NCBI GenBank assembly: GCA_027483605.1
Contig: JAIXUE010000042.1
Coordinates: forward strand, 1-64,000
From: Cryomorphaceae bacterium
GTDB taxonomy: Bacteria; Bacteroidota; Bacteroidia; Flavobacteriales_D; Crocinitomicaceae
DNA length: 64,000 bases
Direction of reading: 5' to 3'
Part shown: one piece after another, positions 30,097 through 49,210 of the stretch
Layout: each line of letters starts with the position of its first letter
Position numbering within the stretch: the first letter of the stretch is position 1
Notes under the pieces: generated by a model
The model's database searches: none
What the model saw: only the letters and a program-made list of their open reading frames with translations
Told to the model about the DNA's origin: nothing
Position numbers and translations under genes: made by a program

Positions 30097-31704
30097 ATGA
30101 AAAATTATCTTCTCGTACTCTTAGCAAGCTCCTTGCTCATTTTGAGTTTTCCTCATACAGGTAGTTTTACGCCATTTGTGTTTATTGGCTTGGTGCCACT
30201 TTTATTGTTGCGCCAACAACTTTTAGGTAGTGGCAACAAACTATGGAAACTCTGGCTCTGGACCTACCTCACTTTTTTATTGTGGAATATCGGTACCACC
30301 TGGTGGGTGGCCAATGCATCGGTCAGTGGCGGCATTTTTGCATTTACAGTGAACGCACTACTGATGACCCTCGCCTTCGGACTCTGGAGTTTCATTGACC
30401 GCAAAATGAATACGCGTTATTCCTTTTTCATGCTGATCCCGATCTGGATCCTTTTTGAATTTGGTCACCAACGCTGGGATCTCTCCTGGCCTTGGCTCAC
30501 ACTCGGTAATTATTTTTCGGTGCGCACAGGTTGGGTGCAATGGTATGAGTGGACGGGTACATTTGGTGGAAGTGCCTGGATTTTATTCGTGAATATTTTG
30601 GTGTTTCGTTTGTATCAGGTGTACAAAGAAGTAGCCAAAAGAAATCAGTATATTTTCACCATTTTAGGCGTTTTGCTTATACCAATTGTGGTGAGTCAAA
30701 TCCTACAGGTATTTGCCATCCCAACACTACAACCCAAGCAACTCCACGCAGTGATTGTTCAGCCTAATATTGATCCATACAAAGAAAAATTTACCATCTC
30801 AGCTACAAACGAAGCCTTTGCCGACTCCATTGTTGTCTTGGCCAACCGACACGTGACCTCCCAAACAGATTTAGTTTTGACCCCAGAGACCACCTTGCCG
30901 CTTTCCTTTCAAGAAGAACGCTTTCAAAACTTCGCATTTGGACAAAATCTCCTCAACCAAGTCCAAAAATGGCCAAATGCCAACTTACTCATCGGAGCAA
31001 GTACTGTTCGTATTTTTGACTACAAAAATTCGCTCGCCAGCACACCTATTCCCGGCGAACAAAATTGGTATGAGAGTTACAATTCATCACTCTTGCTCAC
31101 CAAAAAAGACCCGCCTCAGTTTGTGCACAAATCAAAACTGGTACCCGGCGTAGAACTCGTTCCTTTTTCTAACTACTTCCCTTTTCTTTCCGCACTGGCT
31201 ATTGAAAATGGAGGATCTTCCGGAACCCTAGGGGTAGAACAAGAGCCAAAGATTTTAACGATGCAAACTAAAAAAGCACAAACGGTTACTTTGGCACCAA
31301 TCATTTGTTATGAATCTATTTATGGAGAATTTGTATCCAAACAAGTCAAAAAAGGAGCAGAATTGCTATGTATACTAACCAATGATGGTTGGTGGGGCGA
31401 TACCCCTGGCTATAAACAGCATTTCTCCTTTGCGCGGTTGAGAGCCATCGAAAACCGCAGATGGGTGTTGCGCAGTGGCAATACTGGCACAAGCGGCAGC
31501 ATTGACCCAAGTGGCAAAATCATCAAAAAAACACCTTATTGGGTCAAAACAGCATTTTCACAAACGATTCAATTGCGCACCGATCAAACTTTTTACACAA
31601 CCTATGGCGATTGGCTAGCAGGTATTTCTATCTCTTGGATTTTACTTTGCTTCAGTATATTTCTCAGACATCTTGGCAAGAAATCACGTAACTTGCAAGT
31701 ATGA
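30097..31704 (+). CDS. lnt: apolipoprotein N-acyltransferase
   Basis: A 535-residue inner-membrane enzyme that adds the third acyl chain to the N-terminal Cys of lipoproteins. About six N-terminal membrane helices precede a periplasmic nitrilase-like domain, and a last helix lies near the C-terminus. The catalytic triad is visible: Glu in LTPETTLPL, Lys in VHKSKLVPGVELVPF and Cys in IICYESIYGEF, followed by the family NDGWWGDTPGYKQHF. A TAATTTTG -7-like element lies at 30072-30079. The stop overlaps the ATG of a CotH-type gene (ATGA), so lnt heads a four-gene operon. Confidence 0.96.
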   Translation: MKNYLLVLLASSLLILSFPHTGSFTPFVFIGLVPLLLLRQQLLGSGNKLWKLWLWTYLTFLLWNIGTTWWVANASVSGGIFAFTVNALLMTLAFGLWSFIDRKMNTRYSFFMLIPIWILFEFGHQRWDLSWPWLTLGNYFSVRTGWVQWYEWTGTFGGSAWILFVNILVFRLYQVYKEVAKRNQYIFTILGVLLIPIVVSQILQVFAIPTLQPKQLHAVIVQPNIDPYKEKFTISATNEAFADSIVVLANRHVTSQTDLVLTPETTLPLSFQEERFQNFAFGQNLLNQVQKWPNANLLIGASTVRIFDYKNSLASTPIPGEQNWYESYNSSLLLTKKDPPQFVHKSKLVPGVELVPFSNYFPFLSALAIENGGSSGTLGVEQEPKILTMQTKKAQTVTLAPIICYESIYGEFVSKQVKKGAELLCILTNDGWWGDTPGYKQHFSFARLRAIENRRWVLRSGNTGTSGSIDPSGKIIKKTPYWVKTAFSQTIQLRTDQTFYTTYGDWLAGISISWILLCFSIFLRHLGKKSRNLQV

Positions 31705-33296
31705 AGAAGTGTTTTGTTTTTTTGCTCCTCTTGATTTCTTGTGTTGATGCACAAGCACAAGTAAACCTAACAAGCTCCACACTTCCTATTGTCGTACTAG
31801 ACACCGACGGTGTCAATATTCCAGACGAACCAAAAATTGATGCCATAATGGGCATCATCTATAACGGGCCTGGGCAAGTCAACCAAATTACGGATCCATT
31901 CAATGAATTTTATGGTCAAATTGCCATTGAGACACGCGGCTCCTCTTCCAACAGTTTTCCACAGAAATCCTACGGCATAGAAACCCGAGGGCCAGACTCC
32001 GTTAATTACAATGTTTCGCTTTTTGATTGGCCTTCAGACAACGACTGGATACTCTATGCGCCCTATACCGACAAAGCGCTGATGCGCAACGTACTCACCT
32101 ACAAATTAGGCAATGAACTTGGGCGTTGGGCGCCGCGCACGCAGTTTTGCGAGGTGGTTCTCAATGGTAATTATATCGGTGTATATGTCATGATGGAGCG
32201 CATCAAGACGAACCCTGGCAGAGTCAATATTGATGAACTCAACTACACGGACACCCTAGACAACCACATTACTGGCGGTTACATTGTTAAAGTCGATAAA
32301 ACAACCGCTGGTGGCGTCATCGCCTGGACCTCTCCTTACACCTGCCAAGCTCCAGGAACAGGCCCCATTCGCTTTCAACTCCACGATCCAACAATAGATA
32401 CCATTCATCCGCTACAAAAAGCTTATATCCAAGACTACATAACGGATTGGGAAGTAGCGCTCAAGAGCAGCAATTTTACTGATCCCGTTTCGGGCTATAA
32501 ATCATATATCGACGTCGCATCTTTTATCGACTTCTTTTTGATCAACGAACTCTCCAAAAATGTCGACGGCTACCGCATCTCTACTTATTTACACAAACAG
32601 CGCTTCAGCGAAGGAGGCAAACTAGTAGCTGGACCACTCTGGGATTTCAATATTGCTTGGGGTAATTCAAACTACTGCCAAGGCGGCAATACTTCGGGCT
32701 GGGAAATCAACTTTAACAGCGTTTGTGGTGGTGGTGGCGAATTACAAAATCCATTTTGGTGGAACCGCATGCTTCAAGATCCATTATTTGCCAATGAGGT
32801 GAAGTGTCGTTGGACCACCTTGCGTCAAAGTTCGCTTAGTGATGCTGCACTGACTTCTTACATAGATTCTGTCGCTACGCTACTTTCCGTACCAGCGGCA
32901 CGTCATTACCAAAAATGGCCCATCCTTGGCGTCTACGTTTGGCCTAATAATTTTATTGGTCAAAGTTACCAAGCCGAAGTCAACTACCTCAAAACTTGGA
33001 TACAAAACAGAACAGCCTGGATGGATGCCAACATGTTTGGCACCTGCACAGCAAGTCTATCTAAAATCAACGCCAATCAGATCATTATTGCGCCAAATCC
33101 GGCACAAATAAAAATTGATGTTAGCGGCTTGTCTGGCAATGGAACGCTGCAAATAATAGATCTCTTCGGGAAAACAATTCATCAAATTGTATATGATCAA
33201 ACTTCTGTAGAAATAGAACTGCAGCAACTACAAAACGGCATTTATTTTATATCTGAACCAACTAAAGGAATTTATGAAAAGTTTATCAAAAATTAA
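31701..33296 (+). CDS. secreted CotH-type kinase-like protein with T9SS sorting domain
   Basis: A 531-residue exported protein. A signal peptide (MKKCFVFLLLLISCVDAQAQ) is followed by a CotH domain: IAIETRGSSSNSFPQKSYGIETRG (residues 75-97), APYTDKALMRNVLTYKLGNELG, NYIGVYVMMERIK (157-169), and the metal/active-site segment VDGYRISTYLHK with GPLWDFNIAWGN (311-322, Asp315). CotH of Bacillus is an atypical protein kinase of spore-coat proteins. The last 65 residues, with IIIAPNPAQIKIDVSG and LQNGIYFI, form a type A T9SS sorting domain, so surface export is expected. Activity is inferred from the family only. It overlaps lnt by 4 bases and the next lipoprotein gene by 23. Confidence 0.88.
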   Translation: MKKCFVFLLLLISCVDAQAQVNLTSSTLPIVVLDTDGVNIPDEPKIDAIMGIIYNGPGQVNQITDPFNEFYGQIAIETRGSSSNSFPQKSYGIETRGPDSVNYNVSLFDWPSDNDWILYAPYTDKALMRNVLTYKLGNELGRWAPRTQFCEVVLNGNYIGVYVMMERIKTNPGRVNIDELNYTDTLDNHITGGYIVKVDKTTAGGVIAWTSPYTCQAPGTGPIRFQLHDPTIDTIHPLQKAYIQDYITDWEVALKSSNFTDPVSGYKSYIDVASFIDFFLINELSKNVDGYRISTYLHKQRFSEGGKLVAGPLWDFNIAWGNSNYCQGGNTSGWEINFNSVCGGGGELQNPFWWNRMLQDPLFANEVKCRWTTLRQSSLSDAALTSYIDSVATLLSVPAARHYQKWPILGVYVWPNNFIGQSYQAEVNYLKTWIQNRTAWMDANMFGTCTASLSKINANQIIIAPNPAQIKIDVSGLSGNGTLQIIDLFGKTIHQIVYDQTSVEIELQQLQNGIYFISEPTKGIYEKFIKN

Positions 33297-34835: not shown

Positions 34836-36404
34836 TTAGAAGCCCGGATTCTGTTGTAAGTTCGGGTTAAGTACAATATCAGAAGTTGGAATAGGATATA
34901 GGTTGTATTTATCATCTACTCCAGCACCAGCTACATCTCCGCCCTTAAATGGCCATACATAGTCAGATCCTGTAAAGAGACCAAAGCGGATGAGGTCAGT
35001 ACGGCGCGTACACTCCCAATTGAGTTCACGTGCGCGTTCGTCAATGAAATCGTTGAGCACCAAAGAAGTGTAATTATGTGTCGCGTTTCCGTAAGCACGT
35101 TCACGGATATAATTCATATAGGTAAGTGCCGTGGCTTGATCTCCAGTTCTGAACTTCGCCTCAGCATACATCAAGTATACATCCCCTAAACGGAACATCG
35201 GAAAATCAACATCTGTATGGGCAGTAGTTGCATTATTTGATCCATTCAAACCATCTTTGGTTTTATTCTTGTATTTAGGATTTGCATACCCTTGTGTAAA
35301 GGTGCTCATGGAAGTAATGTCAATTTGTTGGCCCGCGGTATAGAACATCCAACGAGAATCTTCTGTAGAATCTGTAAACTTCTCAATAAATGGACGTGTT
35401 GCACGATTGCCAGCCCATTTGCCATTTACACCATAGTCTGCCGCAACCATTGATCCGCCCAATGCAGAACAAATCATGAAGGTGGTACCACCCCATGTCT
35501 GCGCATAGAGCCCGTCGTAAACAATCGGGAAGATAATTTCTGGTGAGGTATGATTATCTGCTAAAAACACCTCTTGATAGACATCATCTAACTGGAAGTT
35601 GTTTGTATTAATGATTTTCTCACAATAAGTTGCACAATCGGAATAGCGAGCAGTACCTGTATAAACCTCAGCATTCAAGTACATTTTTGCCATGAGCGCG
35701 TGTGCGGCACTGCGAGAAGCACGGCCATATGCAACTGTTGCTGCTGGCGTGAGCTCATCTTCGATTGCTTTGATTTCAGACTCGATGTAGTCAAACAAGT
35801 CGGCGCGCATGATTTGCTCCGGGTTGAAAGCTCCAACGCGGTCTTCTTCTGTTACAAAAGGAACATTGCCAAATAAATCCATAGCGTGGTAGTAAGCTAA
35901 GGCACGCAAGAAACGAGCTTCATTGCGCATCATGACAATATTTGAAACCTGAGCAGCTGTAAAGCCACGCTCATTGAGTTTTTCATCGCGAGCCTGCCAA
36001 ATAAACTCATTACAAAGTGTAATTTGGTAAAATATGCGGTAATACATTCCTTTTACCCAAACGTTGTCTGCATTCCATTGGGTCTTATTGAGGTCGGGAA
36101 TACCTGGGTCATTCCAGCCACAAATTGCTTCGTCGGTAGGGAGCTCTTGCATGTTCCACAATACGCGCACATAAGCAGAGAAGCCCTCGTCGATTCCGGC
36201 GATATCTGCTTGCCCTGCAGGACCTTGGTTGCCCGTCATGGACATGCCTGAGTACAATTTTGCGAGAACTTTAATATAGTTATTGGCATCGCTGTAGACA
36301 GCCTCTGCATTGAGGCCATATTTAGGCGATTGATTTAAGTTTTTGCCACAGGCTCCTAATAAAAGTGCGCTGGCAATAAAGGTATAAGCTGCTAATCTTT
36401 TCAT
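34836..36404 (-). CDS. SusD/RagB-family glycan-binding lipoprotein
   Basis: A 522-residue outer-membrane surface lipoprotein that lids the SusC channel and binds oligosaccharides. The signal peptide ends in LLLGACGKN (Cys19 lipidated). The SusD family start NLNQSPKYGLNAEAVYSDANNYIKVLAKLYSGM, the TPR-like RNEARFLRALAYYHAMDLFGNVPF (near residues 150-175) and the C-terminal DERARELNWECTRRTDLIRFG with LYPIPTSDIVLNPNLQQNPGF are all diagnostic. It follows susC by 10 bases. Location beside amylases suggests starch or another alpha-glucan as substrate. Confidence 0.95.
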   Translation of the reverse strand: MKRLAAYTFIASALLLGACGKNLNQSPKYGLNAEAVYSDANNYIKVLAKLYSGMSMTGNQGPAGQADIAGIDEGFSAYVRVLWNMQELPTDEAICGWNDPGIPDLNKTQWNADNVWVKGMYYRIFYQITLCNEFIWQARDEKLNERGFTAAQVSNIVMMRNEARFLRALAYYHAMDLFGNVPFVTEEDRVGAFNPEQIMRADLFDYIESEIKAIEDELTPAATVAYGRASRSAAHALMAKMYLNAEVYTGTARYSDCATYCEKIINTNNFQLDDVYQEVFLADNHTSPEIIFPIVYDGLYAQTWGGTTFMICSALGGSMVAADYGVNGKWAGNRATRPFIEKFTDSTEDSRWMFYTAGQQIDITSMSTFTQGYANPKYKNKTKDGLNGSNNATTAHTDVDFPMFRLGDVYLMYAEAKFRTGDQATALTYMNYIRERAYGNATHNYTSLVLNDFIDERARELNWECTRRTDLIRFGLFTGSDYVWPFKGGDVAGAGVDDKYNLYPIPTSDIVLNPNLQQNPGF

Positions 36405-36414
36405 GGTTCAAAAA

Positions 36415-39400
36415 TTAGAAATCAAATGTTAAGTTCACTGAATATACGCGCGGACGTGGGTAGAAATTGTTGTCGATCCCGCCTCCAATCTCAGGGTCTT
36501 GACCTGAATATTTGGTAATGACAAAAGCATTTTGCACTACGAAACTGGCATTGAGCCCCACTTTTTCTTTGGCAAAACCAAGCTTTCCAAAGTTGTAGCC
36601 TACATTGATGAAGTCCATGCGCAAGAAGTTGGCTTTCTCTAGATAGTGATCACTCATTAGCTGGTTGGCCGTAACACGTTGCACTTCGTCTTGGTAATAC
36701 AAAGAGCTGATGTTATTGAGGTATTTTTTGGTACCGTCAATGGTTTGGAAAACAGCACTATTGGAGTGGATGTTATTGTAGATAGTAGCACCCAATTCTG
36801 CACGAGCAGAGAAACCAGCATACCATTTTTTATATTGGAAATTTAGGGCTGTTCCAAAGAACATTAAAGGCGCTGCCTGACCAGAGTAATAGCGGTCTTT
36901 CACGTTGATGATGCCGTCTCCATTACGGTCTACAAATGCGTTGGTATCTTTCCATTTGTCTGCAGCGGTCACTTGACCGTCGCCGTTCATATCGATTTCA
37001 GCCAAAGAACCAACTTCGATCACACGACCTTGTGAGTCATACTGCTGTTCTAAAACAAAGAAAGAAAAAGTTGGGTAACCAATTTGGTGTGCTTGAATGG
37101 TGTTACCAATACCGCCACCAATACCACCAATCAAGACACCTGGTGAGGTTGTATCTACAACTTGAGATAACTTAACTACCGTGTTGATGTTGTACGTACC
37201 GTTGATGCTCCAGTCTAGTCTCATGTCCTTTTTTGCGATCAAGCCCGTATTGATTGAAACCTCAACCCCGCGGTTTTGCATGGCACCAACGTTTGTCAAG
37301 ATTTCATTCGTAAAGTTGGTACCTGCCGGAACAGGAACAGTGGCGAGGAGGTCGCGGGTATCTTTTTGGTAAACATCTACACTTCCTGAAAAACGGTCGT
37401 TCTTGAAACCGAAATCTAAACCAAGGTTATAAGAAGTGGTGGTTTCCCAACGAAGGCTCGCATCAAAACCTGCCGGACGCAATACTTGGTAGTACTGACC
37501 GCCGAAGGCATACTGAGCTGTTGTTGCACCTTCAAAATAGTTGCCAATGTAAGCGTAATCTCCGATGCCGTCTTGCTGACCTGTAATACCCCAACCTGCA
37601 CGAAGCTTTAACATATTGATGGTTTTGCTATTCTTCAAAAATGCTTCTTCGGAAATGAGCCATGCCGCAGACGCTGCCGGGAACACACCCCAACGAGTCT
37701 CTGGGCTGAAGCGAGACGAACCATCACGACGAACAGAAACGTTCACTACATATTTACCAGCATAATTGTAAATAGCGCGTCCATAATATGACATGAGTAC
37801 ATTGCGCGTGTAGAAAGGAAATGCTGTCGCAGCTTCAATAATACTGTCTTGCGCTTCGTTGAGCGCTGGATTGTTTGGGCTATAGGTATCCCAATCTTGG
37901 TAAGAGTAACCGGCAACAACTTCTAAGGTTTGTTTTTCCCACTTAGCACCAGAGTTGTAGCTCAAGTAAGATTCAAAAAGTTTGTTGGTTTTAGTAGTGC
38001 GGTAATTTGTGTAGCGCCCTTGGGTGTAAAAACCTGAGGCAGATGAAGCAGGGGTAATGGTAAAACCAGTTCCTTCTGAGAAGTCACCACCTGCGTTTAC
38101 CGTTGCTTTCAATGCAGGCAACGAAGGTAAGTTGTAAGTGAGTTTGGCGTTTGCAATGGCACGGTTCACTTTACTTTGGTCTGTAGATTGTTCAATGAGA
38201 CCCAGTGGATTACGAGCAGAAAGCACGTTTGGTTTATTGTTATCAATCCATTCGAAATAACCACCATAAGCCTCCGATCCAGAATAAATTGGTTGGGTTG
38301 GGTCAAAAAATGCAGCACCCAGCGCTCCGCGGTTGGCAAAGAAAGAAGCCGTTTGAACGTATTTCATGTTGGCCTCTACTTGAAGTGTTTTATCTAGAAA
38401 ACTTGGATTCATGTTCAAGCTCACTGAAGTACGTGCAAATTGATCTCTTTTAAGGATCCCGTTATCGATGCGGTTTCCGACAGATAAGCGATAAGGTAAA
38501 TTTTTGATACCACCGGTGATCGACACGTTGTTGTCGGTAACGACCGCTGAGCGGAATACTTGTCTTTGCCAATCTGTAGAGGAGTCGCCAAGTAGTGCTT
38601 TTTGAGCATTGGTACCTTTTGCATTGACAAGGTTGCGAAGGGAGTCAGCACTGAGGACATCAAAGTACTTTGCAATTGTAGAAACTGACGTTTTGGAGTC
38701 CAGGACAACCTTAACCGCATTTGAAGATGAACCGCGTTTGGTAGTAATGAGGATGACGCCATTTGCTGCTCTTGAACCGTAGATTGCAGTTGCAGATGCG
38801 TCTTTGAGTACCACAAATGAAGCGATATCATTAGGGTTGATCAAAGAAAGGGGATTAGCTGCACCTGCGATACCACCGTTATCTAGTGGGACGCCATCGA
38901 CAACAATTAAGGGGTCGTTTGAGGCATTTATTGAAGTTCCACCGCGCAAGCGAAGTGTAGAACCAGATCCGGGAGCACCGTCGTTGGAAGTAACTTTTAA
39001 ACCAGCAACCTTACCCATAACGAGTTGCTCCGGCGAAGCAAGTGAACCTTGAACAAAATTCTTCTCATTGATAACTGTTGCTGAACCCGTGAGGTCTTTG
39101 GTGCGTTGTGTACCATAGCCAATCACAACGACATCACTTACATCTTGTGTTTTTGAAGCAAACTGAAAATCGTTGGTCACCATTTGGTTGGCCACCACTG
39201 TGACTTGATCAGTTTGCGGGCTGAAACCCATAAACTTGTAAATGACATTGTAGGTTCCGGCTTTGAGGCCTGTGATCTCGTAGTATCCTTTATCGTCGGA
39301 TACGGCGCCCTTGCCCTGACCATCCACCAATACCGAAGCATTGAATAGCGGAACACCAGCTGCGTCTGTGATGATTCCTCGAATACCGGTCTGGGCTATT

Positions 39401-39465
39401 GCCACCACCGAAAGTCCAAAAAACATCAAGAAGGCAAAAAAACTTGTAGTAGTTTGTTTTTGCAT
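36415..39465 (-). CDS. SusC/RagA-family TonB-dependent transporter
   Basis: A 1016-residue outer-membrane barrel that imports oligosaccharides with energy from TonB. Order of domains: signal peptide (residues 1-24), CarboxypepD-reg-like domain (GIRGIITDAAGVPLFNASVLV, 27-100), the SusC box VVVIGYGTQRTKDLTGS near 112-128, the plug with LRLRGGTSINASNDPLIVVDGVPLD near 170-194 and DASATAIYGSRAANGVILITTKRG near 220-243, then the 22-strand barrel ending in NLTFDF with terminal Phe. It heads a susC-susD unit with its own promoter carrying two palindromes. Confidence 0.96.
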   Translation of the reverse strand: MQKQTTTSFFAFLMFFGLSVVAIAQTGIRGIITDAAGVPLFNASVLVDGQGKGAVSDDKGYYEITGLKAGTYNVIYKFMGFSPQTDQVTVVANQMVTNDFQFASKTQDVSDVVVIGYGTQRTKDLTGSATVINEKNFVQGSLASPEQLVMGKVAGLKVTSNDGAPGSGSTLRLRGGTSINASNDPLIVVDGVPLDNGGIAGAANPLSLINPNDIASFVVLKDASATAIYGSRAANGVILITTKRGSSSNAVKVVLDSKTSVSTIAKYFDVLSADSLRNLVNAKGTNAQKALLGDSSTDWQRQVFRSAVVTDNNVSITGGIKNLPYRLSVGNRIDNGILKRDQFARTSVSLNMNPSFLDKTLQVEANMKYVQTASFFANRGALGAAFFDPTQPIYSGSEAYGGYFEWIDNNKPNVLSARNPLGLIEQSTDQSKVNRAIANAKLTYNLPSLPALKATVNAGGDFSEGTGFTITPASSASGFYTQGRYTNYRTTKTNKLFESYLSYNSGAKWEKQTLEVVAGYSYQDWDTYSPNNPALNEAQDSIIEAATAFPFYTRNVLMSYYGRAIYNYAGKYVVNVSVRRDGSSRFSPETRWGVFPAASAAWLISEEAFLKNSKTINMLKLRAGWGITGQQDGIGDYAYIGNYFEGATTAQYAFGGQYYQVLRPAGFDASLRWETTTSYNLGLDFGFKNDRFSGSVDVYQKDTRDLLATVPVPAGTNFTNEILTNVGAMQNRGVEVSINTGLIAKKDMRLDWSINGTYNINTVVKLSQVVDTTSPGVLIGGIGGGIGNTIQAHQIGYPTFSFFVLEQQYDSQGRVIEVGSLAEIDMNGDGQVTAADKWKDTNAFVDRNGDGIINVKDRYYSGQAAPLMFFGTALNFQYKKWYAGFSARAELGATIYNNIHSNSAVFQTIDGTKKYLNNISSLYYQDEVQRVTANQLMSDHYLEKANFLRMDFINVGYNFGKLGFAKEKVGLNASFVVQNAFVITKYSGQDPEIGGGIDNNFYPRPRVYSVNLTFDF

Positions 39466-39552: not shown

Positions 39553-42012
39553 TCACCATTTCAACTCTAAAAGGAAAGGATTTTGAGCAATTCGCAATTT
39601 TGGAGACTTGCTCAAACGCAAAGTACCCGATTTCTTGTCGAAATCAAACTTGACCTTCGTTCCATTTAAATAAACTTCCTTTGGAGCGCTTGGCGCATGG
39701 ATCAAAAGTGAAAAATGAAAGTACTTTTCCCAAATCTTTTCTCCAATTTCTGCTTTAAACTGAAGTGTACATACTTCATTTTGTGTTGAGGCCTGACACC
39801 ATAATTTTTTAGACAAGCCCTTCGCCTCTGCATCAAAGGAGGCACCGTCATCTTCGTACCAAATAAACTCATTCAAGGAGTCGTTGGACTTAGGATCAAG
39901 ATATACATGCAAGACTACTGCTGTATCTCTGTATTGCTCCGTGCTTTGGACCACTGGCGTCATTGGAACAAAAGAGCCCGCTTTTACAAAAACCGGAATT
40001 TCTCGGAGTGTCTTTGTGGTTTCAACCATTTGGAATTCGGCTGAGCTGCCTTTTGACGCAGCTGAATAGACCAATTTTCCCGTATGAAAGTCAAACCATG
40101 ATGAACTGGTAGGGAGCTTTGTTTTGTATTTTGATGCTTTAGTTGCATCCATTGAATCTGTAATGGCGTGCACCAAAAATGCGCTCCCCCACATATACGT
40201 TTCACTTTCAGCAAAAGACCATTTCGCTCGAGGAAACTCCATGAAAATTGGTCTCATCAAGGGTATTCCCTTTTGATGATTTTCATAGGCTATGCTATAG
40301 TTATAAGGTAAGAGCTGGTAGCGCAATTCGATTGCAGATTTAGCCAACGCTTTCGTTTTTGCATCTTTGAAAACTGCTTCGCTTGCTACTTCTTGTTGGG
40401 CATGCGGCCTAAATACAGGCTGAAAGACGCCATATTGCAACCAACGCACATACAACTCTGGATCGTTATTCGCTCCGGCAAAACCACCTAAATCGGAGTG
40501 CATGTAGGCCATTCCTTGCAGACCCATTTGCATGGATATTTCCATTTGTGGTTTGAGGCCGCCCCAAGTGCGGTTGACGTCTCCTGACCAAGGCACCATG
40601 CCATATTTTTGAGAGCCCGAATAACCAGCGCGCATCAAAATGAATGGGCGTTCTGTCGAAAAATCTTTGCGGTAGCCTTCGTATACCAACCTTGCCCAGT
40701 CGTGGCCATAAATGTTGTGTACTTCATCAGCCCATTTATCGCCGTGCTTTAATTTGGTTGGATGTACTTCTGGTTCGCCTAAATCGCCCCAAAAACCCGC
40801 AACACCATAACCATGCAGATTCTTGTAGATATCCCAAAACCACGTTCTTGCTGCTGGTTTGTATAAGTCAATCAAGCCCGTGTTGCCAAAATAAAAATCG
40901 TAGCGGTAAGAATTACCAATAGAATCAGTGCCGAGCAATTTGAAGCGATCGGCTTCGGACCATTTTTTTGAGGTTGTTAGTACGAATGGTTCGGTGATCA
41001 AAATGGTCTTGACATTCTCACTTCTAAAATCAGCAATCATTTGTTCTGCATTGGGAAACGAATCCTTGAAGAATTCAAAATTGCCGAGCGTTCCTTGAAT
41101 GTCTTTACCAAACCAATAGAGGTCAAAAACAATCGCATCCAACGGAATTTGTTCTTTTTTAAATGCCGCAACAACCGCTTTCGCTTCCGCTTCAGAATGA
41201 TAGCCAAAGCGGCTTGCAAAATTTCCGAGTGTCCAGCGAGCGGGAAGCGGCTGTCTGCCTAGCAAGGATGTTAGGGAATTGGTGAGGTCTTTCCAATCGT
41301 CTGAAAAAACAACCTGATAACGCAAAGGCCCTCCAATGACTTCATAGGTAAGTTTGTTTTGCTTTTTTGAATCGAGGTCGAGCCAACCAATTTGTGGATT
41401 GTCAAAATGAAGCGCGTAGCCCTTATCTGAAAGTACAATTGGCATCGTGAAATTCATGAGCTCTGAATGGGTCTCGTAACCGTAGTGTGCACGGTTGTAC
41501 AATTGCAAGCGATAGCCACGGCGATTCATGCCCAATACGCGCGCACCTGCACCCATCAGTTGTTCCTCAGTACTTAAATCAAATTCAATTTTTGAGGTTT
41601 GGTCAAAATAATAGCCTTGCGCCTCGGATACTTCCGTGGTTTTGTAGAAATAAGAAATGTCAAACGGCTTTGTAATGATCTTAACACCGACAGCACCACT
41701 TTTAAGAATATACATTTTAGATTTACCTTCTTTTAAGGCTACGGTTTCTATTTCTAGAAGTTCCCAAGGATTGGCTTGCGCTTGCAAAAGCACCGCATGA
41801 GAACTATCGATTTTTACAGCGCTTCCTTGCGGAAAAAAAGTGGTTTGAATGATCTGCTCAGCAAGCAAAGCCACAACATATTTTCCATCAGAAACCTGAA
41901 TATCTACGCCTTGTTCGGTGAGTTCGATTTTTACAAACTGGCGGTTCAAATTTTGGGCAGTAACGCTATTCCGCCCAAATAAAACGACAAATAAAACTAA
42001 AGTGAAACGCAT
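39553..42012 (-). CDS. GH31 alpha-glucosidase, secreted
   Basis: An 819-residue glycoside hydrolase of family 31 that removes alpha-linked glucose from oligosaccharide ends. A signal peptide (residues 1-20, ending SVTAQ) precedes an N-terminal beta-domain (galactose-mutarotase-like), the (beta/alpha)8 barrel and C-terminal beta-domains with a DUF5110-like end. The nucleophile is Asp410 in VAGFWGDLGEPE and the acid/base is Asp478 in WSGDVNRTWGG; FDLYWFGKDIQG near 296-307 is also typical. No sorting domain is seen, so it is probably periplasmic. The ATG at 42012 lies one base after the stop of the upstream amylase. Confidence 0.94.
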   Translation of the reverse strand: MRFTLVLFVVLFGRNSVTAQNLNRQFVKIELTEQGVDIQVSDGKYVVALLAEQIIQTTFFPQGSAVKIDSSHAVLLQAQANPWELLEIETVALKEGKSKMYILKSGAVGVKIITKPFDISYFYKTTEVSEAQGYYFDQTSKIEFDLSTEEQLMGAGARVLGMNRRGYRLQLYNRAHYGYETHSELMNFTMPIVLSDKGYALHFDNPQIGWLDLDSKKQNKLTYEVIGGPLRYQVVFSDDWKDLTNSLTSLLGRQPLPARWTLGNFASRFGYHSEAEAKAVVAAFKKEQIPLDAIVFDLYWFGKDIQGTLGNFEFFKDSFPNAEQMIADFRSENVKTILITEPFVLTTSKKWSEADRFKLLGTDSIGNSYRYDFYFGNTGLIDLYKPAARTWFWDIYKNLHGYGVAGFWGDLGEPEVHPTKLKHGDKWADEVHNIYGHDWARLVYEGYRKDFSTERPFILMRAGYSGSQKYGMVPWSGDVNRTWGGLKPQMEISMQMGLQGMAYMHSDLGGFAGANNDPELYVRWLQYGVFQPVFRPHAQQEVASEAVFKDAKTKALAKSAIELRYQLLPYNYSIAYENHQKGIPLMRPIFMEFPRAKWSFAESETYMWGSAFLVHAITDSMDATKASKYKTKLPTSSSWFDFHTGKLVYSAASKGSSAEFQMVETTKTLREIPVFVKAGSFVPMTPVVQSTEQYRDTAVVLHVYLDPKSNDSLNEFIWYEDDGASFDAEAKGLSKKLWCQASTQNEVCTLQFKAEIGEKIWEKYFHFSLLIHAPSAPKEVYLNGTKVKFDFDKKSGTLRLSKSPKLRIAQNPFLLELKW

Positions 42013-42013
42013 A

Positions 42014-43909
42014 TCAATGATGTAGTTGAATGATGTAGGCTGTTTTTGCCGGAATACTCCCGTTTGGCACTTCAAAATCAAAGGTTTGATTGGTGAGTAC
42101 ATCTTTGCCTTTGTCATAGCCTCTGAAACCTTCTGCAAAGCGAGACCATGAAAACGTTTGTTCCTTGGTTGAGTTATTGATGATCACCATAATGACCTCA
42201 GCAGGTTGCGCCATTTCTTTTACGGGCTCTAGGTAGCGGAAATACACGTACACATTGTTTTGCGGCACATACTGCAACAGCTTACCTTGGTGAATGACCT
42301 TTTGGCCTTTTCTCCAATTCAATAAAGATTTGGTAAACTGAAAATATGCTTCTTCTTCTGGGGTTCTTCCGGTTTGATACGCCCTACATTTGGTGTCTTC
42401 ATTGCTGCAAAATGCCGTGTGCTGATCTGCAGCCCAGCCGCCAGGAAAGTCTCTGCGGATATCGGCATCGCCTACTGCTTTACTGCCTTTCATACCGATT
42501 TCAGAACCGTAGTAAATTTGTGGAATTCCTCTGGTGGTGGCAATTAAAGTCAAGGCCATTTTGTAAGCTGCAATATCTGGATAAGATTCATTGAATCTTT
42601 GGGTGTCATGGTTTTCCATGAATACCAATAAATTTTGTGGATTGGCATATAGGTAGTCATTGGCAAAGTTTTCATAAAAGCGAACCATTCCTTGGTCCCA
42701 ACCTTGCTCCTGCTCCTTCCATGCCTGCATCATGGCGTCGTGTAAGGTGAAATCCATGACAGAAGGCATGTGGCTATTGTAACCTTGGAGTGCGCCAATT
42801 GGGCTATCTTTTTGCCAAAACGCCATTTGCGCTTGGTCGTGCATCCAAACTTCTCCTACGATATTCAAATTGGGATATTCGGTCATGATGGCTTTTGTCC
42901 ATTTTGCAGCTGCATCTTTGTCGTTGTAAGAGTAGGTATCCACGCGCAAGCCGTCTAATTGCGCATATTCAATCCACCAAATGGTATTTTGAATCAAGTA
43001 AGTCAGCAACAACGGATTTTGCTGGTTCATGTCCGGCATGGTGGTGTCAAACCAACCATCGGCAGATGCTTTTTGATCTGTTTTGGACGCATAAGGATCG
43101 AATTGGGTGCTGGTGCGGTAACTCGATCGTGTGAACTGATCAAACTGATGGATCCAGGTGGCGGTAGGCAAATCTTGGATCATCCAGTGCTTGCTCGACC
43201 AGTGGTTAGGGACTTCGTCTTTGATGACTTTCAATCCTTGTCGATGTGCCTCCAAAACCATTTCCTTGTACCAAGAATTGTTGCCATAACGCGGGTCAAT
43301 TTTATACAAATCGGATTGCGCATAGCCGTGATAAGAATAGGTTGGTTCGTTGTCCTCGAGCATGGGCGTAGTCCAGATGGTAGTGGCGCCTAATTCTTTG
43401 ATGTAACTCAGACGTTGAATAATCCCCATGATGTCACCTCCATGCCGACCACTCGGATTCGAACGATCAGTTGCTTCTTTGGTGTCAGGATGCTTGTCTA
43501 AGCCCTCGTTGGCATTGGCAAAACGGTCTGGCATTAACAAATACATCACATCTGAACTATTGAAACTCTGACGGTACTTGCTGTTTTGAATGCGCTCTTC
43601 GAGCTTGAATTCATGGGTAGCAAGTACTTTCTTTTTATCCATCAATCTGATTGGATAAATACCTGCAACTTTATCTTTGGTCTCCAGCGTGACAAAAATA
43701 TAATTCGGGTTTTCGGTGCGGATTTCTTCGAGAATTTGAAGGCCCACAACCTCCACTTTGTACTTTGCGATGTCTTGTCCGTGCAGCAATACTTGTACTT
43801 GATGGTGCTCCATTCCTACCCACCAGTTTGCAGGTTCTACATGTTTGAATACTTGTGAGTAAGCTAAGGAAGTGAAAAGAAGACAAAAGGCGAGGTTAAT
43901 CCATTTCAT
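42014..43909 (-). CDS. GH13 alpha-amylase / neopullulanase-type enzyme, secreted
   Basis: A 631-residue GH13 enzyme with a signal peptide (MKWINLAFCLLFTSLAYSQ), an N-terminal beta-sandwich (residues 20-110), the TIM barrel and a C-terminal beta-domain. Catalytic residues are Asp324 (GLRVDTYSYND), Glu353 (NIVGEVW) and Asp435 (FMENHDTQRF). The layout fits the cyclomaltodextrinase/neopullulanase group, to which Bacteroides SusA belongs, acting on malto-oligosaccharides or pullulan in the periplasm. The ATG at 43909 overlaps the end of the upstream CotH-type gene by 14 bases; a TTG nine codons earlier is possible but unneeded. Confidence 0.93.
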   Translation of the reverse strand: MKWINLAFCLLFTSLAYSQVFKHVEPANWWVGMEHHQVQVLLHGQDIAKYKVEVVGLQILEEIRTENPNYIFVTLETKDKVAGIYPIRLMDKKKVLATHEFKLEERIQNSKYRQSFNSSDVMYLLMPDRFANANEGLDKHPDTKEATDRSNPSGRHGGDIMGIIQRLSYIKELGATTIWTTPMLEDNEPTYSYHGYAQSDLYKIDPRYGNNSWYKEMVLEAHRQGLKVIKDEVPNHWSSKHWMIQDLPTATWIHQFDQFTRSSYRTSTQFDPYASKTDQKASADGWFDTTMPDMNQQNPLLLTYLIQNTIWWIEYAQLDGLRVDTYSYNDKDAAAKWTKAIMTEYPNLNIVGEVWMHDQAQMAFWQKDSPIGALQGYNSHMPSVMDFTLHDAMMQAWKEQEQGWDQGMVRFYENFANDYLYANPQNLLVFMENHDTQRFNESYPDIAAYKMALTLIATTRGIPQIYYGSEIGMKGSKAVGDADIRRDFPGGWAADQHTAFCSNEDTKCRAYQTGRTPEEEAYFQFTKSLLNWRKGQKVIHQGKLLQYVPQNNVYVYFRYLEPVKEMAQPAEVIMVIINNSTKEQTFSWSRFAEGFRGYDKGKDVLTNQTFDFEVPNGSIPAKTAYIIQLHH

Positions 43910-45320
43910 AAACACGTTGTTGAGTTCCGTTTTCAAAGTTCAAAATTTTAATACAATTTTTAGTACTTGGGTCAATTTCTCTACCCAAAATATCGGTCAC
44001 GAAAAGCAATTTGCCCTTCGTTGCAGCATTTTCATCCAAACCAATTGTACAAGGATTTGGCAAGGCCTGATAAGCACTTAATTGCGAAAGTGCGCTTGTT
44101 TTACGGTTTTGTAAATAGGGAATGATGCCACTCTTGACATGTGCGCCCCAAGTTACTTGCAGTGCATTGATAAAATCTTGATCTGAAAATCCATAGTCTA
44201 AACCTTTGTAGTCGTCATCCAATGCAGCTGGTGTGATCAATGCTTGTTGGGCCTCGAGTTGTGTTTGGAGGTTACTCACGTTCCAAATATTGGAAAGGAT
44301 GTCATTGAGGTGAAAAGTGAAGCGGTCCCTGAAGTAAGGAACTGCTAAGAGTTTGGTATACAACGGTCTGCTTTGATTGCCCGGAGACCACGTGTAAATG
44401 TTGCGCAACGCCCAATTGATATTGAACCAATCTATGCCGAATGTATTATCTAAATCATAAGAAATGTAAACGATTTTTCCGTCGCTCTCCCTTTGATATA
44501 AGTAGTAATTATTTTTATTGTAGGCATAGCCATCCCACTGGCCCATGAGAATTTCTAAGGCAATATTGCGCAAAAACAAATCGACATCAAAGACATCTTG
44601 GATGGCACAAACAAAATTACTAGCAGGTGTATTGTTCAGCACGTCAATGAAATGAATGAGTGCACTGAAATCTGCACTATCCTTATTCGTTTTCAGTTCA
44701 TAAATACTGTTGTAGCTGCTTGGGTTTGAACCCCACCAGGTCAAATCGGCTCCGTAAGCACATTTCCATAAATTACCATTGGCCTGTCCCGGAAAACGCA
44801 AATCGAGAAATTCGTCATCGAGGTGCTCTACATTAATGTACAAGCCTTTATAGGCATTGTTGATATAGAGTTTGATATAACTCGTGCGCGCCGCAGGAAG
44901 TGCTGCAGACCTTAGTAATTGCTGTGCAAGATATGATCGCATGATCGATACATCGTTGTGTTCGCCATTCAGATTTAATTCTTCAAGACCCTGAAATTTT
45001 TGGGTTGGAACAAAACGATTGAAATCGACCTTAAAAGATTTTTTTTGCGAGGCCAAGGAAGTGTTTCCTCTCGCTCTAAAACCAATGCTATCGATTGTAA
45101 CATTCAAAGAAGCGCTCTGATAGGAAACCGTTGCCATAAACTCATGGCCACTGTATAAACTATCTCCAAGAAGTAAATCCAGCGAGTCAGGATGAATATC
45201 CACGTACACACTCGCGAGCTCATTTTGTAGAAAAGCTAAGTTGTAAGGTGGTTGAGGAATTTGGGCAAAAACCGATTGAAGTCCAAGAAAAATGAATAAG
45301 ATAAACCGGATATGCTGCAT
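43896..45320 (-). CDS. secreted CotH-type kinase-like protein within the starch locus
   Basis: A 474-residue exported protein with a signal peptide (MQHIRFILFIFLGLQSVFAQ) and a CotH domain. Motifs are IGFRARGNTSLASQKKSFKVDF (residues 79-100), ELNLNGEHNDVSIMRSYLAQQLL (114-136), YINNAYKGLYINVEHLDDEFL (152-172), QWDGYAYNKNNYYLY (261-275) and the metal-binding YDLDNTFG (288-295; Asp289 and Asp291). CotH homologues are atypical secretory protein kinases. The tail (TDILGREIDPSTKN then NGTQQRVYEMD) resembles a shortened, unusual sorting-domain-like end. It lies between two GH13 genes, 10 bases after one and overlapping the next by 14. The kinase role is inference. Confidence 0.87.
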   Translation of the reverse strand: MQHIRFILFIFLGLQSVFAQIPQPPYNLAFLQNELASVYVDIHPDSLDLLLGDSLYSGHEFMATVSYQSASLNVTIDSIGFRARGNTSLASQKKSFKVDFNRFVPTQKFQGLEELNLNGEHNDVSIMRSYLAQQLLRSAALPAARTSYIKLYINNAYKGLYINVEHLDDEFLDLRFPGQANGNLWKCAYGADLTWWGSNPSSYNSIYELKTNKDSADFSALIHFIDVLNNTPASNFVCAIQDVFDVDLFLRNIALEILMGQWDGYAYNKNNYYLYQRESDGKIVYISYDLDNTFGIDWFNINWALRNIYTWSPGNQSRPLYTKLLAVPYFRDRFTFHLNDILSNIWNVSNLQTQLEAQQALITPAALDDDYKGLDYGFSDQDFINALQVTWGAHVKSGIIPYLQNRKTSALSQLSAYQALPNPCTIGLDENAATKGKLLFVTDILGREIDPSTKNCIKILNFENGTQQRVYEMD

Positions 45321-45330
45321 CCAAATTGCT

Positions 45331-48117
45331 TTAATCAACTTTTACAAACCCTTCATTAGCCATGGCTGTTCCAACTTTGATCAAAAAGTGATAGTTGCCT
45401 GACGGCAGATCCTTTACATCAAATGGGATTTCATTGTCACCACTTGCGGAGGTGCCTTTTCTTTCCATGACGACCTGACCAGCTTCATTCAATAACAGTA
45501 CCTTATATGGTTCAATTGCTAGCGCCTGGAAACGCAGTGTAGCCAATTGCGAAGAAGGATTGGGAAATACCTTCAACTCAAAAGAGGAGTTCAAGACTTC
45601 TTCAATCGAAACAGGTGCTTCAGTAATTTCTGGTTGAGCTAATTTAACATCCGTGTAAATACGGTATTCACCTGCAATAAGGCTAATTGGAGCAAGCGCA
45701 TTAGTGACATTGATGCTATCACCAGTAAAATATTCATACCACCAACCGGCATGCTGAAAAGCAGGAATGACACTTTGTGTAGTCACGGCAAAATTCGCCA
45801 TTGAAACACCATTCATGCTGGCGTGGCTCATGGTCATTCTTTTGGCTGCTCCTGTTAGGTTGTATTGAAAGTTGAGCGAGCGAAAAGTTTCGTAATTATT
45901 TCGCAAGGCAAGCGTTGCCGCGTAGACATCATAGAGTTGTCGGCGTCGCGCTTGGGTGTAGTAATTCCACAAAATAGGTTTATTACAAACACGGCAAGGG
46001 TTATCTATAGAAATGTCGTAACCCAATTCCTGGAACTGCCACAACATTTTAGGGCCGGGTTGTGTCAATAAGATGACGGCGATACCTTGTGCACGACCTA
46101 AAGCTGTATAAAGATTGCGCGCGTTGTGTGCAGGATTGGTATTATTTCCATAAGTAAGCGCTTCAAACATCGTGCGCTCTTCATCATGGCTTTCTGCGTA
46201 AGAAATCAAATGCGGGACGGACCAACCTCTGTTACTATGAATTCCTGAGCTGATATTACTTGAATTGGTAAAGCCCATAAGCGCTTGTTGATACCCGTGG
46301 GTCACGTTACCCCAAAGCATCATGCCATGGTCTGCCAATTGTTCTTCTTCGGCGTTGTCGCACCAGTGTTCTAAAATAATATACGCATCGGATTTATAAG
46401 TCCAGATTTCGTCGACCATTCTCTTGAGCAAGTTGATGCGCTCCATGCTGTAACCATTTCCGTTATTGATAAAACCCTTTGTATAATCAAAACGAAAACC
46501 GTCAATATTGTAGGTCTCGATCCAATAGCGATTGATTTGATCGATATATTGCTGAGTGGCCAAGCGGGTGTGGTCATAATCATAACCCCAGCAATAAGGT
46601 TCATGCGGGCAAATGGCATTGAACCAAGGGCTATTCGCTGCGGGGCGTGCATTTGCGGCGTCCCAATACATACGGACCATTGGGCTCTGACCGAATGCAT
46701 GATTGAGTACCATGTCTACAATCACTGCAATACCACGGCCGTGGCAAGAATCTACAAACTCCTTGAATTTTTCTGGCGTACCATAATACTTATCAAGAGC
46801 CATGTGAAATGACGGGTTGTAGCCCCAACTCTCGTTGTTTTCAAACTCTCCAGGAGGCATGAGTTCAATTGCATTGATTCCGAGTTTAGTCAGGTAGTCT
46901 AGGGTATCAATAAGCGTTTGGTAATTTCTTTTGGCGACAAAATCGCGAACCAATAGCTCGTAAATGACTAAATCCTTCTTTTGCGTGGCGGTGAAGTTGG
47001 TGTTGGTCCAAACATAAGGAGTGGCAGCCGTTTGTAAAACCGTTACAAAACCTGTTGTTTGTCCGATAGGGTATGGATGCGGATTTGGATAAGTTTGAGC
47101 ATTGATGCTGTTGTCATTGTTCGGGTCCAAAATGAGTGTACTCATTGGATCTGCCAAGCGCAAATTGCCATCAATGAGGTATTGATAACCGTATTTTTGG
47201 CCGGGTGTTAGCCCGGTGATTTCTAGCCACCAAGTTTGGTTGTTGGTAGATAGATGCATATGATAGTTGGTCGTTGGCGTCCAGTTGTTGAAGTCGCCAA
47301 TGACGTAAATATGTTCTTTTTGAGGGGCGAATAACTGCAATACAACAGTTGTGTCGTTGATGTAATTGATGCCATTTTGTAAATTGGCATAAGTGGGGTC
47401 TTGCGGAACCACTAGCGGGTTAACCGTAAAATAAGTTGAGTCAATGACTTGTGTGGTGCCGTTGTCGGCAATGAATTCAAGTAAGTGCGTGCCAGCTTGT
47501 GTAGCCGTTAAAGTATAGTTGAGCTGCGTAGCATTGGGTAGTGTCTGAAGTACAATTCCATCCTGTTTGAGTGTTAGGCTTGCATTCTGATTGGCTGCCG
47601 CTTCCACGTGCAGTTGCTCATTTAAATCCAAAATAGCACCCGAGTTCGGATGAAAAAATTGGGCTAGCAAACCTGCATTGACCGGATAAACATCGTAATA
47701 GATATCGCTGCCATCTGCCGAACGGCCAACAATTGTTCCGGCTGCATTTCTAAATACAAAAGCAAACTTTAAAACATTTGTTCCTGCAGGAAAGCCATAA
47801 TATTGATCGATATCGATGGTGATAGTGTGTTTGTTGTTGCCAATATTGGTCATGGCAACTTCGGGGTCTACGGTTCCCCAATTGCCTTGCACAAATTGCC
47901 AATTGGTTGGCGATGTACTTGCAGAGGTAATGAGTCCGGCGTGGGCATAGATCTGGTTTTGACCTACTAACGCAGCATTTCCTTGTGTTGCATCATAGGT
48001 GATGGTTACTACATCGTTTACCGTGGGAAATGCAGGATTCACCTCTAAGATTTGTGCATTCACAAACCCATCGAGGAGCATCAAAACAATAGATAAAAGA
48101 AGCTGCTTTTTCATCAC
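45331..48117 (-). CDS. GH13 alpha-amylase with N-terminal modules, CBM48 and T9SS sorting domain
   Basis: A 928-residue secreted enzyme. After the signal peptide (residues 1-22) come a beta-sandwich possibly of the starch-binding CBM25/26 type (about 25-145), a second beta-sandwich (150-235), a CBM48-like module (250-345, with IYVIGDFNNWTP), and the GH13 barrel (380-760). Catalytic residues are Asp544 (IDGFRFDYTKGF), Glu583 (YIILEHWCD) and Asp645 (YAESHDEERTM). The C-terminal 75 residues (FELKVFPNPSSQLATLRF ... LPSGNYHFLIKVG) are a type A T9SS sorting domain. It is therefore the likely surface amylase of the locus, comparable in role to SusG but exported by T9SS rather than lipid-anchored. 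Confidence 0.94.
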   Translation of the reverse strand: MMKKQLLLSIVLMLLDGFVNAQILEVNPAFPTVNDVVTITYDATQGNAALVGQNQIYAHAGLITSASTSPTNWQFVQGNWGTVDPEVAMTNIGNNKHTITIDIDQYYGFPAGTNVLKFAFVFRNAAGTIVGRSADGSDIYYDVYPVNAGLLAQFFHPNSGAILDLNEQLHVEAAANQNASLTLKQDGIVLQTLPNATQLNYTLTATQAGTHLLEFIADNGTTQVIDSTYFTVNPLVVPQDPTYANLQNGINYINDTTVVLQLFAPQKEHIYVIGDFNNWTPTTNYHMHLSTNNQTWWLEITGLTPGQKYGYQYLIDGNLRLADPMSTLILDPNNDNSINAQTYPNPHPYPIGQTTGFVTVLQTAATPYVWTNTNFTATQKKDLVIYELLVRDFVAKRNYQTLIDTLDYLTKLGINAIELMPPGEFENNESWGYNPSFHMALDKYYGTPEKFKEFVDSCHGRGIAVIVDMVLNHAFGQSPMVRMYWDAANARPAANSPWFNAICPHEPYCWGYDYDHTRLATQQYIDQINRYWIETYNIDGFRFDYTKGFINNGNGYSMERINLLKRMVDEIWTYKSDAYIILEHWCDNAEEEQLADHGMMLWGNVTHGYQQALMGFTNSSNISSGIHSNRGWSVPHLISYAESHDEERTMFEALTYGNNTNPAHNARNLYTALGRAQGIAVILLTQPGPKMLWQFQELGYDISIDNPCRVCNKPILWNYYTQARRRQLYDVYAATLALRNNYETFRSLNFQYNLTGAAKRMTMSHASMNGVSMANFAVTTQSVIPAFQHAGWWYEYFTGDSINVTNALAPISLIAGEYRIYTDVKLAQPEITEAPVSIEEVLNSSFELKVFPNPSSQLATLRFQALAIEPYKVLLLNEAGQVVMERKGTSASGDNEIPFDVKDLPSGNYHFLIKVGTAMANEGFVKVD

Positions 48118-48202: not shown

Positions 48203-49210
48203 TTATTGCTTGATCAATTTACCAGTAGCAACTTTGTCACCTGCAACAACGTTGTAGATATAAGAACCAGCCTGCAAAGCAGTTGTATTCATTTCTACAG
48301 TTGTAGTAGCAGAAGTAGCGACAGTTTGTGTAGCAACTACTTTACCAGTAAGGTCGAACAATGTAACGGTTGCAGTTGCAGCGTTGTTTGCGTCGAATGT
48401 GAAGTTCACAACATCAGATGCAGGGTTCGGCGCTACAGTAAGGTTAGCAATTGCGTTTTCAGCAACAGAAACACCACATGCTGTACAAGCATCCCAAACG
48501 TAACATACAGTACCAGGAAGCAAAGTGTACGTACGGTTGATGTTACCAGCACCGTCATCTACACCACAAGAGTCAACTGCAATTGTGTTAGCAGCATCTG
48601 TACCTTCGTTTGAACCCCAGTCGCCGTTTACGAACTTGTAAAATTGAGTAGCACCCAAAGAAGCAACAGGATAAGATACAGTAATTGCCCAAATGTTGTT
48701 GCCTTCGTCTGTCATTGCAGAGTTTGCATCACCAGGAGACCAGTTTGCAACCGGACCAGCTGCTACAGTAGCACCGTTGTCTGTGAAGTTACCTCCAACA
48801 CGGATACCATTTGCAGCCAACGTAGCGCCACCAGCAAGGTAGTTAGTGATGTCCACTTTGTAAGTTACGTCAAAGTTAGTTTGAAAGCTATACATACCTG
48901 TTGTGCGGTTAAAAATAACCATGTAAGTACCAGCAGGAACAGGAATGTTAGGGCCTCCTTGAACACCAACTCCAGTAGGAAAGTCAACAGCACCCCAGTT
49001 GATAGCCCAATCGTCGTCTTGACGGAATTTAGCTTCACCAGCCGTACAGGTAACAATTGCGCCATACATTTCACCGTCTACAGTGACCATGTCAACATCA
49101 GCAGACCAACCAGATGGCAAAGCCGAACCGATGATACCTACCGCAGGGAATTGTGCGAAGGCAGAAGCTCCTAAAACGAGAGCCGTTAAGAGTGTAAAAA
49201 TTTTCTTCAT
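48203..49210 (-). CDS. SusE/SusF-like starch-binding protein with T9SS sorting domain
   Basis: A 335-residue exported protein. The signal peptide is MKKIFTLLTALVLGASAFAQ with no lipobox Cys. Residues 21-115 (LPSGWSADVDM, GEAKFRQDDDWAINWGAVDFPTGVG, NIPVPAGTYMVIFNRTTGMYSF) match SusE/SusF-type binding modules. Residues 116-245 form a second beta-module with aromatic residues (WSPGDANSAM, FYKFVNGDWGSNEG) and paired cysteines (VCYVWDACTACG). Residues 255-335 (LTVAPNPASDVVNFTFDA ... LQAGSYIYNVVAG) are a type A T9SS sorting domain. It has its own promoter and terminator and probably serves as an abundant surface glucan binder. Confidence 0.87.
   Translation of the reverse strand: MKKIFTLLTALVLGASAFAQFPAVGIIGSALPSGWSADVDMVTVDGEMYGAIVTCTAGEAKFRQDDDWAINWGAVDFPTGVGVQGGPNIPVPAGTYMVIFNRTTGMYSFQTNFDVTYKVDITNYLAGGATLAANGIRVGGNFTDNGATVAAGPVANWSPGDANSAMTDEGNNIWAITVSYPVASLGATQFYKFVNGDWGSNEGTDAANTIAVDSCGVDDGAGNINRTYTLLPGTVCYVWDACTACGVSVAENAIANLTVAPNPASDVVNFTFDANNAATATVTLFDLTGKVVATQTVATSATTTVEMNTTALQAGSYIYNVVAGDKVATGKLIKQ

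Follow-up and report, generated by a model that had tools for sequence, protein, structure and literature searches.

A CotH-family kinase-like gene conserved within a Sus-type alpha-glucan locus suggests phosphate tagging of exported starch-handling proteins

A gene for a kinase-like protein of the CotH family, here called CotH1, is kept by selection together with an alpha-glucan system, and this linkage is limited to a lineage that falls mainly within one bacterial order. The stable joining of a CotH kinase(-like) gene to a Sus-type alpha-glucan locus is what is new here. The conserved pairing in relatives suggests that exported starch-handling proteins receive phosphate tags. Specifically, CotH1 may be a competent CotH-type kinase phosphorylating Ser/Thr on co-exported alpha-glucan proteins and altering their assembly, anchoring or activity, a reading held with a probability of about one half.

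Organization of the locus

The DNA comes from an aquatic, starch-using bacterium, an uncultured member of the Flavobacteriales with Crocinitomicaceae and Flavobacteriales MAGs as its closest named records. The window, that is, the whole 64,000-nucleotide stretch of DNA analysed, carries a seven-gene alpha-glucan cluster on the minus strand, in the order SusE/F-like, GH13b, CotH1, GH13a, GH31, SusC and SusD:

48203..49210, minus strand: SusE/F-like protein ending in a T9SS tail, heading the cluster (Por_Secre_tail 47.6 bits; SusF_SusE below threshold at 23.2 bits)
45331..48117, minus strand: GH13b, exported GH13 enzyme with DUF4961, CBM48, GH13 and a T9SS sorting tail (Pfam; co-occurrence with CotH1)
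43896..45320, minus strand: CotH1, exported CotH-family kinase-like protein, 474 aa (Pfam CotH; Z 38.1 to 5jd9)
42014..43909, minus strand: GH13a, exported cyclomaltodextrinase-like GH13 (Pfam Cyc-maltodext_N, Alpha-amylase, Cyc-maltodext_C)
39553..42012, minus strand: GH31 alpha-glucosidase-like enzyme (Pfam GH31; likely ATG start at 42012, from the ORF)
36415..39465, minus strand: SusC-type TonB-dependent transporter (TIGR04056, 644.8 bits)
34836..36404, minus strand: SusD-type starch-binding lipoprotein (Pfam SusD_RagB; NCBIfam SusD E = 1.8e-122, under that model's cut-off)

With susC adjoining susD and GH13 enzymes alongside, this is a Sus-type locus. The CotH1 frame opens with an ATG at 45320 and closes with a stop ending at 43896; the stop of GH13b at 45331 leaves a 10-bp gap before it, and the ATG of GH13a at 43909 produces a 14-bp overlap. 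A sequence-only reading of the same DNA had placed a CotH gene between two GH13 genes with exactly this spacing, and its coordinates are exact. Two further GH13 genes lie on another contig, the window holding half of those in the genome, while CotH genes scoring over the Pfam cut-off number five in 2.4 Mb.

As in the Bacteroides Sus system, SusC, SusD, SusE/F-like, GH13 and GH31 proteins are encoded in one locus. Compared with the classical Bacteroides system, the present locus adds a CotH kinase-like gene and T9SS tails on GH13 and SusE/F-like proteins.

Family, fold and catalytic residues of CotH1

The match of CotH1 to the CotH family PF08757 is not a chance one, as its score of 214.5 bits (E = 3.5e-63) far exceeds the curated cut-off, which is 23.8 bits, and the family is also matched by 31 of 31 CotH1 homologues from the genus. 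The signal peptide and the three CotH motifs that the sequence-only reading had picked out are present in the frame, the motifs being RARGNTSLASQKKSFKVDF (residues 82–100), NKNNYYLY (268–275) and YDLDNTFG (288–295). Bacillus cereus CotH is the only solved relative found by sequence (E = 7.4e-18). An AlphaFold prediction based on 42 homologues, with a mean pLDDT of 89, gives a kinase-like fold at approximately residues 34–418 and a short C-terminal beta tail at 438–472, and superposes on B. cereus CotH (5jd9) with Z 38.1 and an rmsd of 2.6 over 348 residues (Foldseek E = 1.5e-21). The next fold families, PI4KII, CtkA, HipA and Fam20, reach approximately Z 13 or below.

Fam20-family structures appear among these distant fold matches at Z of about 10–11, and the gene sits amid glycan-handling genes, which would fit an enzyme phosphorylating a malto-oligosaccharide or an O-glycan of exported proteins, like the distant relatives Fam20B and POMK. 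Both of the latter are sugar kinases. The Fam20 matches, however, are far weaker than those to CotH (Z 11 versus 38), and the biochemically known CotH substrates described are proteins only (PMC7821199), so that glycan phosphorylation by CotH1 is regarded as very improbable.

The mutations D228Q and D251A inactivate CotH of B. subtilis (PMC7821199). In CotH1, D263 aligns with D222 of the B. cereus protein (equivalent to B. subtilis D228) and D289 with D245 (equivalent to D251), the numbering having been carried from B. subtilis to B. cereus by the 23-residue spacing. These two residues do not vary in any of the 42 aligned homologues, which are drawn from several families at identities down to 37%, and the same holds for D291, K93, K94 and E165. 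The ATP-site residues, which the sequence-only reading had proposed to compare with those of Bacillus CotH, are thus retained. On the grounds of sequence and predicted fold, CotH1 is classed as a kinase, with a decayed remnant excluded, and is quite probably an active phosphotransferase. Pairwise dN/dS of CotH1 against near relatives, taken at unsaturated dS only, is 0.03–0.06 and is similar for the neighbouring enzyme genes, showing strong purifying selection on CotH1.

The conserved active site also bears on a structural role, in which CotH1 would scaffold exported glucan-handling proteins or help them to assemble, with phosphotransfer incidental or serving only its own assembly, as has been proposed for the cellulosomal protein CseP. 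Such a role finds some encouragement in the naming of CseP as a possible structural component of the cellulosome, in a review allowing cellulosomal CotH proteins either a structural or a regulatory function (PMC12484212), and in the lamin-tail domains borne by CotH relatives. Yet catalytic Lys and Asp residues unchanged across 42 sequences would be needless in a pure scaffold. Moreover, the D228Q variant of B. subtilis CotH enters the coat at a near wild-type level and still gives a mutant coat pattern, so it is the activity of the protein that matters there (PMC7821199). Such a structural role for CotH1 appears unlikely.

Export and the C-terminal tail

The N-terminus of CotH1, MQHIRFILFIFLGLQSVFAQ, reads as a Sec-type signal without a lipobox Cys. 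No Pfam or NCBIfam match to a T9SS sorting domain (Por_Secre_tail/TIGR04183) was obtained for CotH1 or the tested genus homologues at E values up to 10, and the last 50 residues (NPC...DILGREI...KN...NG) weakly resemble local T9SS tails, with an hhalign probability of 37% between home-made profiles. CotH1 relatives from other families are longer, at 735–780 aa, and mostly contain lamin-tail and T9SS sorting domains (L076 9947–12184, L078, L081, L085, L087 and others); those of L076 and L081 match the sorting domain. Compared with them, the genus form of about 474 aa has a shortened tail. PorU is present in the genome. Taken together, these observations make a periplasmic or surface location of CotH1 likely.

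Conservation of the linkage within the genus

A search for relatives with their flanks returned 29 same-genus loci, and in all 29 CotH1 adjoins GH13b and/or GH13a up to the contig limits; the same is true of almost every MAG locus from this genus. As in the genome itself, the place of CotH1 in these 29 loci is between the two GH13 genes wherever the contig extends far enough. The most consistent partner is GH13b. When the genome itself and 60 others of the genus were tallied, CotH1 and GH13b were both found in 38, CotH1 only in one, GH13b only in none and neither in 22 (Fisher p = 1e-15, a value that overstates independence because the genomes are related and synteny with rpoC-recG-accA-ispE is partly regional). 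Chance is excluded as the origin of the CotH1–GH13 adjacency in the genus.

The region around rpoC-recG-accA-ispE is often syntenic in the genus, and regional synteny alone was considered as an explanation for the linkage. It is ruled out, since the pairing persists outside the rpoC-recG context and, rearranged, in other genera of the order.

The cluster of locus L074 (5025–10775) is itself rearranged: GH13b and the SusE/F-like gene lie on the opposite strand, and CotH1 still heads GH13a-GH31-SusC-SusD.

Linkage in the order and the class

In genomes from other genera of the order, CotH and GH13b occur together in 15, CotH alone in 0, GH13b alone in three and neither in 21. The three GH13b genomes without a clear CotH1 are G077, G084 and G091, the first being a fragmented assembly. 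The CotH gene lies directly upstream of the GH13b homologue in seven other-genus genomes (G063, G068, G078, G081, G090, G092 and G096) and likewise in MAG loci L076 and L090, which is the reverse of the order found in the genus; in G096 a longer GH13 stands first. Where the contig is long enough, different SusC/SusD genes follow in these other-genus loci, and a GH65 gene is often nearby. The link is not absolute, because in at least one genome (G074) CotH and GH13b occupy the interiors of different contigs. Other arrangements include GH65/GH77 or GH13/GH97 genes near the CotH gene in L078 and L081, and GH97-GH13-CotH in L087, which belongs to an uncultured bacterium; its CotH clusters with those of Ignavibacteria.

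At the class level, alpha-glucan genes were found within 9.5 kb of two of 25 CotH1-like loci, and within the same distance of none of 20 control loci with other CotH types; a universal link between CotH and starch is ruled out by these counts. A tree of 86 CotH domains places the linked genes mainly in one lineage (32 of 41 rows) within a well-supported CotH1 subfamily, and the linkage label changes 10 times, compared with a mean of 28 after shuffling. The class-level and control counts and this clustering therefore make the linkage a trait of one lineage, and not of CotH in general, although a few other cases may be separate. As glucan genes are missing from the vicinity of most CotH1-like genes in the class, the core function of the CotH1-like family need not concern starch. 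The neighbourhood of homologues, which the sequence-only reading had offered as a check, proved non-random in the genus and the order, but the association does not extend across the CotH1-like subfamily.

This lineage-limited distribution may be set beside the possibility that CotH1 has an unrelated job in the envelope and sits in the operon only as a passenger. CotH genes are indeed common in Bacteroidota, as the five copies in this 2.4-Mb genome illustrate, most CotH1-like genes at class level lack a link to glucan genes, and the conservation of the rpoC-recG-accA-ispE region is partly regional. A mere passenger, however, would not be expected to stay with the cluster in loci lacking rpoC/recG synteny (L055, L056, L070) or where GH13b has moved to the opposite strand (L074), nor to be lost together with GH13b within the genus, nor to adjoin it in another order and next to different SusC/SusD genes in other genera. 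An unrelated function is accordingly held to be improbable.

Proposed function

Association with the glucan genes somewhat favours the view that CotH1 acts within the glucan system. Given its position in the operon, CotH1 would be produced together with the alpha-glucan-utilization proteins and, given its signal sequence, would be exported by the Sec pathway. Outside the cytoplasm it would be active with a nucleoside triphosphate as donor and would most likely phosphorylate Ser/Thr of at least one protein of the system that is exported alongside it. The sequence-only reading had suggested amylases, SusD, the SusE/F-like protein or T9SS cargo as possible targets. The first candidate substrate is the adjacent T9SS-tailed GH13b, since no other gene accompanies CotH1 so consistently, although it is doubtful that this enzyme would be the main one. 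Phosphorylation would then change the assembly, anchoring or activity of its targets.

Several considerations count against this proposal. No Ser/Lys/Arg-rich repeats of the Bacillus type, which are the CotH targets in Bacillus, were found in the operon proteins. The Gram-negative periplasm holds little ATP, whereas Bacillus CotH acts on the mother-cell side. The mostly unlinked CotH1-like genes at class level and the three genomes of the order with GH13b alone also weigh against it.

It can be hypothesized more broadly, and more tentatively, that in Flavobacteriales of this lineage an extracytoplasmic CotH kinase phosphorylates components of a Sus-like glucan-degrading machine, thereby regulating polysaccharide capture or assembling the machinery for it, in a case independent of the cellulosomal CotH proteins. 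If true, extracytoplasmic protein phosphorylation would be added to the Sus paradigm, and the CotH proteins of Bacteroidota, widespread but functionally unassigned, would gain a testable setting in which the operon is defined, the candidate substrates are few and the growth phenotype is easy to score. The proposal also raises a concrete biochemical question, namely the phosphate donor of an exported kinase.

Relation to known CotH systems

CotH1 shares with Bacillus CotH (B. subtilis; B. cereus 5jd9/5jda) the same fold (Z 38, about 348 residues, 26% identity) and the positions of the catalytic Asp and Lys. It differs in having a signal peptide for export from a Gram-negative cytoplasm, in its starch locus, in a short extra C-terminal tail, in the loop RGNTS where B. 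cereus CotH has RGAHI, and in an operon without a CotB/CotG-like substrate.

The cellulosome offers a second comparison. Clostridium thermocellum has the cellulosomal CotH proteins CseP (Cthe_0044) and Cthe_0239, the latter with the architecture LTD-LTD-Fn3-CotH (PMC6083626), and dockerin-bearing CotH proteins occur in anaerobic fungi (PMC10978972). In both settings a CotH module is attached to an extracellular polysaccharide-degrading machine, and the combination of lamin-tail and CotH domains in Cthe_0239 is that of the CotH1 relatives of about 740 aa. The cellulosomal proteins are recruited to cellulose machines by dockerins, whereas CotH1, which has no dockerin, is tied to an alpha-glucan Sus-type locus by its operon and by shared export. 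Since the clostridial and fungal examples are published, a kinase on a machine for glycan degradation is not entirely without precedent; the sequence-only reading was fair in placing such phosphorylation outside the classical Sus model, although CotH on another such machine had already been described. In the largely open-access literature searched, no paper joins CotH with SusC and SusD or with a Sus-type locus, and the titles and abstracts on CotH with polysaccharide utilization and amylase, or with type IX secretion, describe no such locus. Taken with the cellulosomal proteins, the proposed role would point to a repeated use of CotH kinases in machines that degrade glycans outside the cell.

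Other CotH genes and database records

A second CotH gene of the window, CotH2 (31701–33296, plus strand), has a T9SS sorting tail and lies 1.5 kb beyond susD in convergent orientation. Its cluster comprises an lnt-like gene, CotH2, a gene for a 263-aa protein with weak SdrD_B/carboxypeptidase-regulatory-like matches, and DUF2490; a homologue of the 263-aa protein is also encoded just downstream of a CotH gene in the class-level loci L133, L138 and L144. One family (f60), represented by L104 (6506–11273) and L107 (164–3703), has tandem CotH genes as well as very long CotH ORFs of about 1140–1180 aa.

Several public MAG records that bear the name Sphingomonadales, Chryseobacterium gleum or Chitinophaga pinensis in their titles (L043, L048, L050, L056, L058, L074 and L080) contain the operon or a CotH1 relative, with CotH1 at 79–84% protein identity in L043 and L048; the titles of these seven records are probably wrong.
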